Source: Brachybacterium sacelli (lineage in GTDB: Bacteria; Actinomycetota; Actinomycetes; Actinomycetales; Dermabacteraceae). From it: 64,000 nucleotides of DNA. Location: the NCBI RefSeq assembly GCF_017876545.1, contig NZ_JAGIOD010000002.1, positions 682,001 through 746,000 of the forward strand, given 5' to 3'. Shown piece by piece: positions 8,116-48,852 of the stretch (the first letter of the stretch is position 1; every line of letters begins with the position of its first letter). Made by a program: the position numbers and the translations under genes. Below the pieces are notes generated by a model. It worked only from the letters and a program-made list of their open reading frames with translations. It was not told the origin of the DNA and ran no database searches.

Positions 8116-8163
8116 GCCGGCGGCCGAGGGGTGTTCCCGCGGGAACGTCCCTCGGCCGCCGGC
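8116..8163. terminator. Bidirectional terminator hairpin with nested palindrome
   Basis: A perfect 15-base inverted repeat (GCCGGCGGCCGAGGG at 8116-8130 and its complement at 8149-8163) encloses an 18-base loop. The loop is itself a palindrome, GTTCCC-GC-GGGAAC at 8133-8146. It lies between the convergent deoA and kinase-Nudix genes and can serve both. There is no T-tract, as is common in high-G+C actinobacteria. The nested palindrome belongs to the repeated family also found at 11846 and 48831. Confidence 0.7.
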
Positions 8164-9293: not shown

Positions 9294-10838
9294 TCATGCG
9301 GCGAGGCCGACGACGCTACGGCAGAGCAGCTCGACGCAGTCCGCCAGACGGAAGCCTGCGCCGCCCGTGGTGGCGGCGATCCGGGCCCCGTCACCGGCGG
9401 GCTCGGACGGCGATGAGGGAGCGGGACGGGTTCGCACGTGCTCGAACATCGCGGGCCACCGGGCCTGGACCGGGGTCCCGCTCTCGTCCACGACCCGGAA
9501 CCTTGGTCCGCCGCGAGCCCGGGGTCGCCGGAGGGGCACGAGACGGAGTCCGCCCTCGTGCACGATCACGTGGTGACGCCGACACACCAGGGCAAGGCCC
9601 TCGATGTCCGTGAGCCCGCCCTGCGACCAGGGCGTCACGTGATGGGCATCCAGATTCCTGCTCTGGTGGCAGCCGGGGAAGCAGCAGGTGCCGTCGCGCA
9701 GCCTCAGCGCGCGACGCTGGGCACGGGAGGCGAGCCGGCGGGCACGACCGAGATGGAGAATCTCGCCGCCCGCGTCGGTGAGGACGATCGCGACGCGGCC
9801 CGTGCAGGCGAGGCGTTCCGCGGTACGGGTCTCGAGCGATCCGCCGCCGACGACGCCGCATCGCTGGGGCGTTCCCGAGGGAACGCGCCCGGCGTCTGCA
9901 TCGGTGAGATGTTCGGGGTTCGCCGCGGGACCGTCGTGGACCAGGGCCGAGGCGTCGACCTGCACCACGACCAGGTGGCGGTCCTCTCCGGAGCGATCCC
10001 CGGGCGCAGCGGCGAGGAACCCCCGGGCGACTTCGTGGACGGCATCGGCGCGGCGCTGGGCGAGGGTGGGGGCAGTGGTCGCGCGGGCGTCCTCGGCGGC
10101 AGCGACGTCGGCTTCGGCTTCGGCGAGAGTGTCCTCGCTTGCGGGATGCCCCGCGTGCTCGTCCGCGAGCTCGACCGAGGGCTCGTCAGTTCGCTCGACC
10201 GAGGGAACGGCGGTCCCGTCCCGTTGCAGCGCGGTCTCGAGGGCGGTGATCATCTCGGCGCCGGCTTCCGCGGGGAGCACGGCACGGATCTCGACCATTC
10301 CGTCCTCCCGGGTGCGCCAGCGGGCCTCGCGCACGGCGTCCTGGCCCAGGCGGCTGCCGTCGATCGCCCGGAACGAGGAGACTGCGCGAGCCAGCTGGGA
10401 GGCCGTCGTGCAGCGCGCCAGCTCGACCAGCTGCTCCTCCTCGACGCGGTCGGCGACCCGGGTCATCTCCCGCACCTTCGAGTAGGAGAGCCGACCGGCG
10501 CGGAACTCCGCGACCGTGCGCGGCATCGACGGCAGGGCGCGCGCCACCCTCACGTGCTCGCGTGCAGTGCCCGGCGACATCGAGCAGGACCAGGCCAGCC
10601 AGTGTGCCGTGGACTTGAGCCCGACGAACCAGCCCACCCCTTCGCGGGCATCGAAGTCGGCGAGCATCAGCAGCAGCTCGCAGGTTGCCTCGGCGAGGTG
10701 CGCCGCCTGCCGCTGGATCCGTTCCCCGAGGCTCTCGGCGTCGGCCCGCGCGAGACGCCCGGGACCAGCGGGGGAGGGCATATCGGCGGCGGGGTCGTGG
10801 TCGTGGTCGTGGGCGGAGGACGGCGGGACGCGGGACAT
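9294..10838 (-). CDS. DUF222 / HNH endonuclease domain protein (13E12 repeat family)
   Basis: 514 residues. The N-terminus is His/Asp-rich (HDHDHD). A helical DUF222 domain follows (about 30-330), including [20 protein letters not shown] and [15 protein letters not shown]-terminal HNH nuclease motif ends it: [20 protein letters not shown], then LALVCRRHH. Such proteins are abundant multi-copy families in actinobacteria (13E12 in mycobacteria); their role is unknown, with nuclease activity and mobility suspected. A GTTCCC-GA-GGGAAC palindrome at 9871-9884 lies in its variable linker (VPSGT). It interrupts the nucleoside-salvage genes, so it may have been inserted. Confidence 0.88.
9869..9886. 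repeat. Palindromic repeat family member inside the HNH gene
   Basis: GCGTTCCC-GA-GGGAACGC has 8-base arms around a non-symmetrical GA centre. The arms match the GTTCCC/GGGAAC core of the perfect palindromes at 8133, 11846 and 48831. On the coding strand it encodes Val-Pro-Ser-Gly-Thr in a linker between domains. Confidence 0.6.
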
Positions 10839-11730: not shown

Positions 11731-11786
11731 GGCCTGGCCGAGCACCTCGCGCAGCTCAGGCCTGGCCGAGCACCTCGCGCAGCTCA
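11731..11786. repeat. 28-bp perfect tandem duplication at the 3' end of pmmB
   Basis: A 28-base unit beginning GGCCTGGCCGAGC occurs at 11731-11758 and again, adjacent and identical, at 11759-11786. The right copy encodes the last residues of the mutase (ELREVLGQA). The mutase stop codon is made by the first bases of the left copy. 28 is not a multiple of three, so the duplication itself created the present stop. Confidence 0.9.
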
Positions 11787-13507
11787 CCGTTCAGCTGCTC
11801 CAGGCGCTCGCCGGATCGGGCCCGGATGCTCGTCATCTCCGCCCGGGACGTTCCCGCGGGAACGTCCTGGACCACCTCGAGATAGCACTTGAGCTTGGGC
11901 TCGGTGCCCGAGGGACGGACCACCACCCGGGTGTCGTCGGCGCTGCGCAGGAGCAGGCCCTCGGTCGGCGGCAGTCCGGTGGTCCCGACCGAGCCCTGCG
12001 AGAGGTCCTCGGTGGTGGTGACCGCCGAGCCGAGCAGATGGGTCGGCGGGGCGGTGCGCAGCTGTTTCATCATCGCGGGGATCCGTGCGAGGTCCTCGAC
12101 CCGGATCGACAGCTGGGAGGTCGCGAACAGCCCGTGCACCGCGGCGAGCTCGTCCAGGCGGTCGATCAGCGTCGTGCCCTCCGCTCTCGCGAGGGCGGCC
12201 ATCTCGGCGACCATGAGCGCGGCGGAGAGCCCGTCCTTGTCACGCACCACCTCGGGCAGCACGCAGTATCCGATCGCCTCCTCGTAACCGTAGACGATGC
12301 CCTCGGCCCGGGCGATCCACTTGAAGCCGGTCAGCGTCGTCGCGGGCTCGCGGCCCGCCTGCTGCGCCACCCGGTCCAGCCAGCGACTGGAGACGAGGGA
12401 GCGGGCGAGGACCCCGTCGTACCCGTGGTGACGGATCAGGTGATCACCGAGCAAGACGCCCAGCTCGTCGCCCGTCAGCATCCGCCAGTCACCCCGGTGC
12501 GCATCGTGCACGGCGGCGGCGCACCGATCGGCATCGGGATCGTTGGCGATCACCACATCGGCCTCGACCGTGCGCGCCAACTCGAGAGCGAGGTCGATCG
12601 CGCCCGGCTCCTCCGGATTCGGGAAGGAGACGGTCGGGAAGTCCGGGTCGGGGTCGGCCTGCTTGGCGACCGGGTGCACCTCGGGGAAGCCGGTGCGGTG
12701 CAGCGCCGCCAGCGCCGTCTCGGTGCCGACGCCGTGCATCGCGGTGTGCACGATCCGCACGTCCCGCGGCCCCTCCGGATCCGGCAGCGCGCAGATCGCC
12801 GCGAGGTAGTCCTCGCGCAGACCCTCGCCCAGCTGATCCCAGCCGCCGGCGGCGACGGGGATCGCGAGAACGGGGCCGACGGCGGCGATGCGGGCGGCGA
12901 TCTGTCCGTCCGAGGGCGGCACGATCTGCACGCCGCGGCCGTCCTCCTCCGCGGCGCGTCCGCCGAGGTAGACCTTGTAGCCGTTGTCGGCCGGCGGGTT
13001 GTGGCTGGCGGTGACGACGATGCCCGCGTCGGCCTCGAGGTGCCGCACCGCGAAGGCCACCAGCGGGGTGGGGCCGAACCGCTCGAGCAGGTGGACGCGG
13101 CAGCCCGCCGCGGTGAGGATCGCCGCCGAGGTCTCGGCGAAGTCCTGGGAGCGGTAGCGGGCGTCGTAGCCGATCACGACGGCAGGCGACTCGATCCCGA
13201 GGTCGCCGAGCAGGTGGTCGGCGAGTCCCCGTGCGGCGCGGGAGACCACGGCGAGGTTCATCCGGTGCGGACCGGGCCCCATCCGCCCCCGCAGACCGGC
13301 CGTGCCGAACTGGAGATCGGCGGAGAAGGCGTCGGTGAGCTCGTCGATCGCCGGGCCGTCCCCGGCGCGGGCCTGCTCGAGCAGGGAGGTCAGCGCCGAG
13401 CGGGTCGCCGGATTGGGGTCGTCCGCGATCCAGGCCTCCGCGCGCTCGTGCAGCGTCGGTCCCGGATCCGCGGGGGCGGGGGAGCCTGCGTCCTGGGGAG
13501 GCATCAC
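11756..13507 (-). CDS. pmmB: Phospho-sugar mutase (phosphopentomutase/phosphomannomutase type)
   Basis: 583 residues of the alpha-D-phosphohexomutase superfamily. QFGTAGLRGRMGPGP is at 66-80, the phosphoserine loop TASHNPP carries Ser168, the metal loop is DPDADR, and the phosphate-binding loop GTEPKLKCY is near the C-terminus. Mycobacterial pmmB lies beside the PNP gene. Here it overlaps punA by 4 bases (GTGA) and sits among deoA, deoC and cdd, so interconversion of pentose-1- and pentose-5-phosphates is the likely physiological role (inference). An alternative start is the ATG one codon later. The 22-bp palindrome at 11846-11867 encodes VPAGT in its variable C-terminal segment. Confidence 0.9.
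   Translation of the reverse strand: MMPPQDAGSPAPADPGPTLHERAEAWIADDPNPATRSALTSLLEQARAGDGPAIDELTDAFSADLQFGTAGLRGRMGPGPHRMNLAVVSRAARGLADHLLGDLGIESPAVVIGYDARYRSQDFAETSAAILTAAGCRVHLLERFGPTPLVAFAVRHLEADAGIVVTASHNPPADNGYKVYLGGRAAEEDGRGVQIVPPSDGQIAARIAAVGPVLAIPVAAGGWDQLGEGLREDYLAAICALPDPEGPRDVRIVHTAMHGVGTETALAALHRTGFPEVHPVAKQADPDPDFPTVSFPNPEEPGAIDLALELARTVEADVVIANDPDADRCAAAVHDAHRGDWRMLTGDELGVLLGDHLIRHHGYDGVLARSLVSSRWLDRVAQQAGREPATTLTGFKWIARAEGIVYGYEEAIGYCVLPEVVRDKDGLSAALMVAEMAALARAEGTTLIDRLDELAAVHGLFATSQLSIRVEDLARIPAMMKQLRTAPPTHLLGSAVTTTEDLSQGSVGTTGLPPTEGLLLRSADDTRVVVRPSGTEPKLKCYLEVVQDVPAGTSRAEMTSIRARSGERLEQLNGELREVLGQA
11846..11867. repeat. Perfect 22-bp palindrome, copy A
   Basis: GGACGTTCCCG followed directly by its reverse complement, identical over all 22 bases to the copy at 48831-48852. 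It lies within the pmmB coding sequence, in frame as Asp-Val-Pro-Ala-Gly-Thr-Ser, in a segment not conserved in the family. Repetition at this length is far beyond chance. Confidence 0.85.
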
Positions 13508-30584: not shown

Positions 30585-32058
30585 CCTCTGGCCGCTGCTC
30601 GATCGCGCGGTCCGCGCGGGATCGCGGTTCGCGCGTCGCCTGCCCGGCACGGTCGGAGGAATGGGGATCTACTTCTCGGCGCGGCACCGCCTGGCCGCCG
30701 ACCCCGAGCGCACCGACTGGCGCGAGGACGTCGACGCGCTGCTCGCGCGCGCCGACCGCAGTCTGGCCCGCGGCCGGATCGCGGCCGGGCTGCGCTGGTA
30801 CGACAAGGCCCTGCGCATCAGCTACGACCCCTCCCTGCACCAGGCCGGCAGCTCGCCGCTGGCGGCCGACCCGGTCACCTTCCTGCGGGCGCTGCGGGAC
30901 TGCGCGACCGGGACGATCATGCTGCGTTCCGCCGTGCCCGCGGCCAGCGTCCCCGAGCGACCCGCGCCCCGGCCCGACGGCGACCGCACCCACCTGCTCG
31001 TCATCGCCCAGGAGAACTGGACCTTCATCCGGCCGCTGCTGGACGCCCTGCGTGCGACGGGGCGGTTCGAGATCCGCGAGATCGAGGTCGACGCGCTGCC
31101 GGACGCCGGCTTCCCGGACCGTGACCGGATCCTGCGCGGCCGCTACGACCTCGTGACGACCGGGGTGCGGATGCCGACCCCGCCCGGGGTGGCCGACGGG
31201 TACGACTGGGCCGACGTGGTGCTGGTCGAGTGGAGCCACCACGTGCTGACCTGGGTGACGCTGCTGGACCGGGCGCCGCGGGCCCTGATGGCCCGATTCC
31301 ACCGCTTCGAGGCGTTCACCCCCTTCGCGCTGTTGCACGACCACGCCCGCCTCGACCGGTTGCTGTACGTCGCGCCGCCGGTGTGGAACCTGGCCCGGGC
31401 CGCCGCCCCCGGGTTCGCCGACGTGCAGGCCGTGCAGGTGGGGAACCTGCTCGCGCGCGGTCTCGGCCCGGCTCCCGGCGAGGAGCGGGACCGGCACCTG
31501 CTGGTGCAGGTCGGCTGGCGGCGCGAGGTCAAGGACGTGCTGTTCACCCTCGAGGTCCTCACCCGGCTGCGCACCCACGATCCGCGCTACCGCCTGCGCC
31601 TCATCGGGCCCGGCCTGGCCGCCCCCACGGCCGCCGAGAGCTCCTACCATCGCCGGGTGCGCGCCCGCCTGGCCGCGCTCGGCCCCGAGGTGGTCGAGCA
31701 GCTCGGCCGGCGCGAGGACGTTCCCGCCCTGCTCGCCGAGTCCGGGCTGATCATCTCCTCCTCCCGCCACGAGGGGACCCATGAATCGATCATGGAGGGG
31801 CTGGCCGCCGGGTGCCCGGCCGTCATCCGCGACTGGCCCGACGCCGCGGACTACGGGGGACCGGGGACGTTGTACGGCAGCGACTGGGTGGTGACGGACG
31901 TCGAGGCCGCTGTGCAGAGGGTGCTCGAGGTCACCGCCGCCGAGCGCTACCCGGCGGCCGCCCGGGAGGCCCGGGAGTTCGCGCTCGCGCACCGGGACCC
32001 GGAGACCGTGGTCGCCGCGTACGAGCGGGCGCTGAGCGCGGACCCCGCCGCCGCATGA
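30577..32058 (+). CDS. GT-B glycosyltransferase, group 1-like
   Basis: 493 residues from a GTG overlapping the oxidoreductase by 8 bases. Residues 1-110 are Arg/Ala-rich and helical. The centre (about 135-290) resembles an N-terminal GT-B domain with VVLVEWSHHVLTWVTLLD. The C-terminal half has LVQVGWRREVKDVLFTLEVL, LRLIGPG and the donor-site segment SSSRHEGTHESIMEGLAAGC (Glu pair as in GT4). It likely adds one sugar of the surface glycan from a nucleotide donor at the inner membrane face. Donor and acceptor are unknown. The early start is less certain than the rest. Confidence 0.8.
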   Translation: MADLWPLLDRAVRAGSRFARRLPGTVGGMGIYFSARHRLAADPERTDWREDVDALLARADRSLARGRIAAGLRWYDKALRISYDPSLHQAGSSPLAADPVTFLRALRDCATGTIMLRSAVPAASVPERPAPRPDGDRTHLLVIAQENWTFIRPLLDALRATGRFEIREIEVDALPDAGFPDRDRILRGRYDLVTTGVRMPTPPGVADGYDWADVVLVEWSHHVLTWVTLLDRAPRALMARFHRFEAFTPFALLHDHARLDRLLYVAPPVWNLARAAAPGFADVQAVQVGNLLARGLGPAPGEERDRHLLVQVGWRREVKDVLFTLEVLTRLRTHDPRYRLRLIGPGLAAPTAAESSYHRRVRARLAALGPEVVEQLGRREDVPALLAESGLIISSSRHEGTHESIMEGLAAGCPAVIRDWPDAADYGGPGTLYGSDWVVTDVEAAVQRVLEVTAAERYPAAAREAREFALAHRDPETVVAAYERALSADPAAA

Positions 32059-48830: not shown

Positions 48831-48852
48831 GGACGTTCCCGCGGGAACGTCC
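48831..48852. repeat. Perfect 22-bp palindrome, copy B
   Basis: GGACGTTCCCG plus its reverse complement, identical to copy A at 11846-11867. It lies in the 66-base gap between convergent genes (GT2 and the ankyrin gene), where it could act as a terminator or protein-binding site. There is no T-tract. Confidence 0.85.

Follow-up and report, generated by a model that had tools for sequence, protein, structure and literature searches.

A perfect palindrome that recurs in the genome of Brachybacterium sacelli was found in and around genes of one subfamily of DUF222-HNH (13E12-type) proteins, and we consider it probable (roughly 0.58) that it is the cognate DNA site of these nucleases. The palindrome was strongly enriched, was tied to one type of DUF222-HNH gene (hereafter type A) and differed in sequence between lineages of that gene; from this association, binding and cutting of the site by the type-A protein are inferred. 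A protein recognising its own palindrome would be the simplest, if unproved, account. The link to a DUF222-HNH nuclease gene is the key point beyond an earlier note on the same DNA, in which the palindrome had been described; one such gene is present in the window, as we call the whole 64-kb stretch analysed here.

Allowing two mismatches, the 14-bp core GTTCCCGCGGGAAC occurred four times in the 64 kb against 0.48 expected, a number that none of 100 dinucleotide shuffles reached, and the 22-mer with up to three mismatches occurred three times against 0.01 expected; chance is excluded as the origin of the copies in the window and the genome. The earlier note had reported the 22-mer, base for base, at 48831 and 11846, the core at 8133 and the variant at 9869, two of the copies being in convergent gaps and two in genes. 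All of this agreed with our analysis, in which the copies at 8133 and 48831 are the intergenic ones and those at 9869 and 11846 the genic ones (Table 1); a half-site GGACGTTCCCGC that it placed at 31687 lies at 31716-31727. Genes were called with a codon-usage script, not a standard gene finder. The core at 8133 is located in the gap between a NUDIX gene and a convergent gene that we take to be thymidine-phosphorylase-like, and within its inverted repeat two mismatched pairs adjoin the 14 bp. The same gap in relatives contained the exact core in two genomes (G032 and G020) and a copy with one mismatch in a third (G028), on stems that differed. In G016 the orthologous glycosyltransferase gene is followed by a 54-bp palindrome built on this core, and in G014 by a one-mismatch core.

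Table 1. Palindrome copies and genes discussed in the text (window positions unless a contig is given; the name pgm is presumed from sequence motifs)
Feature	Position	Strand	Context
14-bp core	8133..8146	none	Tip of a longer inverted repeat, ~8116-8163
Type-A nuclease gene (DUF222-HNH, 13E12-type; protein of 514 aa)	9294..10838	-	Pfam PF02720 and PF01844
One-mismatch copy GCGTTCCCGAGGGAACGC	9869..9886	none	Inside the DUF222-HNH gene, protein VPSGT
pgm (phosphomannomutase/phosphoglucomutase-type gene)	11756..13504	-	Contains the 11846 palindrome near its 3' end
Perfect 22-bp palindrome	11846..11867	none	Inside pgm, in frame as (D)VPAGTS, stop codon ~100 bp away
Perfect 22-bp palindrome GGACGTTCCCGCGGGAACGTCC	48831..48852	none	Convergent gap between a glycosyltransferase family 2 gene and an ankyrin-repeat gene
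Second type-A copy	G000:C1:1206504-1208078		Adjoins dnaB; two exact palindromes inside

The complete 4.87-Mb genome contained 12 exact copies of GTTCCCGCGGGAAC and none of the reversed control, an enrichment far above tenfold that supports the earlier suggestion of a genome-wide interspersed palindrome; besides the copies carried by a DUF222-HNH gene of this kind, ten further ones were scattered. Counts in related Brachybacterium genomes, a comparison suggested in the earlier note, gave the exact core in 34 of 38 genomes of the genus (own genome included), with a maximum of 13 per genome, and 7 of 80 genomes of more distant relatives had one to three each. The 18-mer RCGTTCCCGCGGGAACGY was detected in 27 of 396 genomes sampled from the order (3 of 109 genera). 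Among the matches listed from a scan of named genomes (at least 116 stretches, with per-taxon counts that carry no meaning), it was found in Brachybacterium, Geodermatophilaceae, Microlunatus and relatives, Gemmatimonadota and scattered others, and three viral contigs contained it. Loci from Gemmatimonadota MAGs (among L192-L270) had 34 sites of the same palindrome, 20 in tandem or convergent gaps and 10 in genes, and a motif scan of the fetched stretches identified an HNH gene of the type-A kind at none of the 34, which counts against the palindrome being a nuclease site.

Across 78 sites from the genus, the conserved unit was a 20-bp palindrome, GRCGTTCCCGCGGGAACGYC, with sharp edges, of the form GRC-GTTCCCGCGGGAAC-GYC, conservation stopping at about ±3 of the 14-mer. 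Flanks were not generally conserved, so that the feature by which the earlier note would have recognised an element was not found; unlike a Rickettsia-type palindromic element or MITE, the 78 sites had no conserved sequence beyond the short palindrome. Half-sites were barely enriched (CGTTCCCG, 66 observed against 55 expected in 431 kb), and a single half-site as the unit was rejected on this marginal enrichment. In the same 431 kb (the window and 20-kb loci of the genus), ACCATGGT was over-represented, with 58 observed against 22 expected when both strands were counted. Pairs of palindromes about 40 bp apart were seen in L256, L268 and L269 (Geodermatophilus, Blastococcus), L277 and L287, and in several of them the intervening sequence was itself an inverted repeat (like TCAAG...CTTGA), forming a composite hairpin. 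A convergent gap of G109 (L153, ~1990-2120) contained a tandem array repeating about every 40 bp, with the palindrome or a variant in each unit. A second motif, approximately GGGATCTGACA (complement TGTCAGATCCC), accompanied some of the genus sites (L053, L066, L067, L068, L070, L275) at a distance of 20-30 bp.

Pfam matches of the protein encoded in the window (PF02720, E 1.9e-18; PF01844, E 4.8e-5) confirmed membership of both DUF222 and HNH, and its gene sits between the copies at 8133 and 11850, 1.0-1.2 kb from each. The own genome contained 15 DUF222 matches and at least two type-A copies (3 of 40 candidates scored). Among the 853 proteins encoded within 2.5 kb of a site in the loci covered by this comparison, DUF222-HNH proteins formed much the largest homology cluster (34 proteins). 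A sample taken so as to avoid bias towards the palindrome consisted of the best Pfam DUF222 match of each of 30 genus genomes. Eighteen of these genes had a Pfam E value of 8e-18 or lower; the exact 14-mer was present inside or within 1.5 kb of 17 of them, and the locus of the other one (G015) had copies with one mismatch. Among the remaining 12 loci the exact 14-mer was present in L112 only and in none of the other 11. A scan for type-A motifs matched L092-L109 and L112 and none of the 11 palindrome-free loci, nine of which encode one other DUF222-HNH kind and one a third kind, the last (L119) being a wrong gene call. Four genomes of the genus had no site (G005, G010, G019 and G031); the two DUF222 loci examined from these four, one each in G019 and G031, were not of type A by the motif scan.

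Within type-A genes of the genus the palindrome usually occupied the linker between the DUF222 and HNH domains, often twice, and every copy inside a called gene was in frame 0 and read VPAGT. The exact 14-mer encoded 34 of the 37 VPAGT motifs in 27 type-A genes (nine of them fetched because of the site) and 10 of 15 in other genes, a biased figure from loci picked around pgm. A preferred terminator tip combined with a protein motif (VPAGT or VSAET) whose codons happen to be palindromic might also produce such a pattern, given that several sites in convergent gaps are tips of long hairpins and that frame 0 was used by all in-gene type-A copies of the genus and by 13 of 18 in other families. We regard this by-product account as very improbable, however: 34 of the 37 VPAGT motifs are spelled identically and with GTT, which is rarely used for Val, intergenic copies are exact, and another frame is used outside type-A genes (copies read as ERSRGN in four genomes, a descriptive point, as these sets were chosen for holding the exact site). 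Copies also flanked the gene on both sides, 97 bp upstream and 16 bp downstream in a Geodermatophilus and 56 and 22 bp away in a Blastococcus. One plasmid and one phage record each contained a relative of the type-A protein. L407 (MT835797.1), an unverified phage record from a human-gut contig, encodes a 66%-identical DUF222-HNH protein and has the exact palindrome; it may be a bacterial contig rather than a phage.

Outside the genus, 29 type-A loci were fetched by protein similarity alone (three candidates per genome scored); they come from other genera and, with few exceptions, from other families and orders. Palindromes of at least 14 bp centred on CCGCGG numbered 31, in 13 of the 29 loci, against a mean of 1.13 (maximum 5) in 30 shuffles, and consisted of four sequences, GCTTCCGCGGAAGC, CGTTCCGCGGAACG, GTTTCCGCGGAAAC and GGCTCCGCGGAGCC; 18 were located within the gene, and 13 of the 18 read in frame 0. 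Eleven loci (39 kb) of other DUF222 kinds had a single such palindrome. An identical perfect palindrome was repeated in 12 of the 29 loci compared with 8 of 492 control windows, one of which was the G689 sequence itself. A sixth type, GTCCCCGCGGGGAC, was found about 110 bp upstream of a Rhodococcus plasmid gene. On the protein tree, where the T1 (GTTCCC type) labels of named loci come from the T1 search, the palindrome type changed 11 times against a shuffled mean of 24.2, with none of 200 shuffles as low, and palindrome types thus clustered by gene lineage. Counting against the nuclease-site reading, 16 of the 29 loci had no CCGCGG-centred palindrome, and one branch of eight on the protein tree had no palindrome. 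In 800 kb of G481, whose gene (L359) carries the GCTTCC type, three copies of this own type were present in stretches without a called HNH gene, against 0.01 expected by composition, whereas five other types were absent. The gene of G689 carries the CGTTCC type, and 800 kb of this genome had four own-type copies at the gene, one elsewhere and none of four other types.

The copy inside pgm allowed a direct comparison, intergenic copies being too diverged to judge insertion. Thirty pgm genes, one from each of 30 genomes, aligned across the site with no gap; the exact core was present in six, and the other 24 differed at three or more positions (by eye). An inserted mobile palindrome was rejected here, as the site replaces aligned codons without insertion. 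Of the natures that the earlier note had considered for the palindrome, a bound site fits best, given the sharp edges of the 20-bp unit and flanks that are not generally conserved in the 78 sites, and a small inserted mobile element found no support at pgm, the sole coding site at which it could be tested. All five codons of the site were invariant in the six genomes, for which the chance is about 0.0017 for a pre-named stretch, with fourfold third bases invariant in 28% of 273; since pgm contains four runs of at least five invariant codons, this invariance alone is modest evidence. The site uses GTT, which accounts for 2 of the 45 Val codons in pgm, site included. The pgm site looks as if kept by selection, to judge from codon usage and conservation, which would be odd for a mere target and counts against the nuclease-site reading.

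The six genomes that share the pgm site differ in the neighbouring gene: a type-A gene adjoins it in the window genome and not in the other five, so that the site exists there without the gene. A full gene of the window type was absent from the same gap in 11 relatives with both flanking genes, where the gap measured 0.14-0.48 kb in six and 1.4-7 kb, with other content, in five. One of the relatives, G028, had a 37-aa remnant of the gene in this gap. Relatives may thus have lost the gene, instead of the window genome having recently gained it, which counts against the nuclease-site reading and removes the ground for taking the pgm site to be older than the gene. Free-standing (intronless) HNH homing endonucleases likewise are encoded by HNH genes present or absent beside a site common to relatives. 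In contrast to these, the type-A gene does not destroy its own site, exact copies of which occur inside and beside the genes, the site is symmetric, and at least one site looks selected. Intact sites in or beside a type-A gene count against the nuclease-site reading, as a freely cutting enzyme would cut its own gene; together with the apparently selected pgm site, intact in-gene sites argue against an enzyme that is simply a selfish cutter, so that binding, nicking or cutting under regulation is more likely than cleavage at all times.

Sites were unevenly distributed relative to genes. Of the 78 genus sites, called genes contained 50 against 65 expected, convergent gaps 12 against 2.2, tandem gaps 13 against 4.4 and divergent gaps 3 against 3.4; a set of 125 sites from 19 genomes, a subset of the sites that the counts show and including four from outside the genus, comprised 79, 24, 18 and 4, respectively. 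Some of the copies in convergent gaps formed the tip of a longer inverted repeat, with perfect pairing over as much as 54 bp, and within one gap the same core was found on different stems across genomes. The excess in convergent and tandem gaps, the presence of sites far from DUF222-HNH genes and the selected appearance of the coding site in pgm would all suit a different host protein (a regulator, insulator or nucleoid protein) by which DUF222-HNH genes are controlled or silenced and which has further binding sites elsewhere. This is unlikely in our estimate, given that the palindrome type varies by family and clusters on the nuclease's own tree and that in-gene copies of the genus are mostly in the coding linker, not in a promoter.

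A REP-like short mobile palindrome, inserting into gaps and linkers with the DUF222-HNH protein as its mover, is another reading that we considered. In REP/RAYT systems TnpA_REP, a Y1 HUH enzyme, is accompanied by family-specific short palindromes in and around its gene and dispersed in the genome, and the lineage-specific palindromes in and around one enzyme gene, with their dispersed copies, resemble this arrangement. The pairs about 40 bp apart in Geodermatophilaceae, the 40-bp array in G109 and the second motif beside a subset of genus sites are also in keeping with it. The enzyme here, however, is an HNH and not a Y1 HUH protein, the palindrome is perfect and 18-22 bp long, and sites are embedded within the enzyme's own reading frame. 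With codons replaced and no insertion at pgm, flanks not generally conserved and different stems on one core in a single gap, such mobility appears distinctly unlikely.

Under the nuclease-site reading, the type-A gene would carry its own site in the coding linker and/or just beyond the gene, with further sites scattered over the chromosome, over-represented in convergent and tandem gaps but not divergent ones, and many in genes. The protein, predicted to consist of an all-helical N-terminal domain (confident), a mostly disordered stretch and an HNH nuclease domain, would be made upon DNA damage, judging by the LexA-like box that several families have where the gene starts. It would be the type-A protein, and no other, that binds the palindrome, presumably as a dimer on the two-fold symmetric site, and the bound dimer may nick or cut at or near it. 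Repair would then copy from gene copies as templates, which could put the gene beside sites, a homing-like outcome, and convert gene copies into one another.

The proposed damage control agrees with an exact LexA-like box, CGAACN4GTTCG, in 12 of the 29 other-family loci against none in 1.17 Mb of background; in 11 of the 12 no more than about 105 bp separated it from the called start of the gene, and L216 and L282 also had it. In the genus, damage control would be an extrapolation: an exact box was present in one of 28 loci scanned (L100), besides a few near matches, which counts against the nuclease-site reading, and a scan at the type-A gene of the window gave none. AlphaFold2, using 34 sequences, predicted a confident helical N-terminal domain (~30-150) and a fair HNH domain (~371-460), and the low-confidence stretch took in the linker that encodes the palindromes. 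Foldseek against solved structures returned no hit at E≤0.001 and weak but sensible matches to HNH nucleases only; the N-terminal domain had no structural match, which also counts against the nuclease-site reading. A profile search of solved structures returned the HNH parts of other proteins at E values of 0.01 or worse.

The mycobacterial 13E12/REP13E12 genes belong to the same protein family by Pfam, as members carry PF02720 and PF01844 (in part after PMC10589994, where REP13E12/DUF222 is listed among repetitive elements). Further papers place 13E12 genes in the LexA regulon and ascribe mobile-element characteristics to them, there citing Davis 2002 (PMC5005354), propose a role in mismatch repair (PMC4181829) and describe REP13E12 as a gene-conversion hotspot with no defined function (2026 preprint, PMC13061034). 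LexA control and mobile-element characteristics would be further likenesses to the genes studied here. In contrast to the palindromes reported here, a cognate palindrome or dispersed sites for 13E12/DUF222 were not found in the open-licence literature, nor was the palindrome sequence itself. HNH and DUF222 appear nowhere in the text of a paper on the LexA regulon of Streptomyces venezuelae (PMC9380542), which counts against the nuclease-site reading.

DUF222-HNH genes are present in multiple copies in many actinobacteria and have no defined function. With a candidate recognition sequence for each of several lineages, the question can be put to a direct test using purified protein and short DNA; if true, the nuclease-site reading would explain a class of dispersed palindromes and would suggest why DUF222-HNH genes are recombination hotspots. 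More tentatively, at somewhat less than even odds, the pattern may reflect a two-part system throughout the Actinomycetota, in which a damage-induced 13E12-type DUF222-HNH nuclease and a lineage-specific perfect palindrome (centre YCCGCGGR, at least six types), often within the nuclease reading frame as well as scattered over the chromosome, would direct site-specific breaks and programmed recombination or gene conversion.

Sites bound by parS- or Noc-type proteins are exact palindromes in genes and convergent gaps, as are the sites described here, and the register of the palindrome recalls parS/NBS. A chromosome-organising site of the parS, Noc or matS kind would also accord with the sites of G021 and G034, located within about 250 kb of dnaA, and with the 65 merged sites of 11 genomes, 28 of which fell within the first fifth of the origin-to-terminus arm (positions based on rounded lengths for 5 of the 11). 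It seems hardly probable, since sites of other genomes span the whole arm, up to 0.94, with no consistent position, the palindrome is tied to the nuclease gene, and in the own genome one HTH_ParB protein and no second ParB-type protein was found; this one protein, which might bind the palindrome as well, has a parS-like cluster of its own nearby. Canonical parS as the identity of the palindrome and a second ParB/Noc as its partner were rejected, neither having been found, as was clustering at the origin or terminus, for which no more than two genomes gave a strong signal. Near parB (G000:C1:847181-847701), each of the four parS-like sites found is one base off GTTTCACGTGAAAC. A dif-like site (of the ATAATGTACGTTATGTAAA type) was present exactly once per genome in 16 genomes of the genus, about opposite dnaA (0.46-0.56 of the circle) in the 11 placed genomes.
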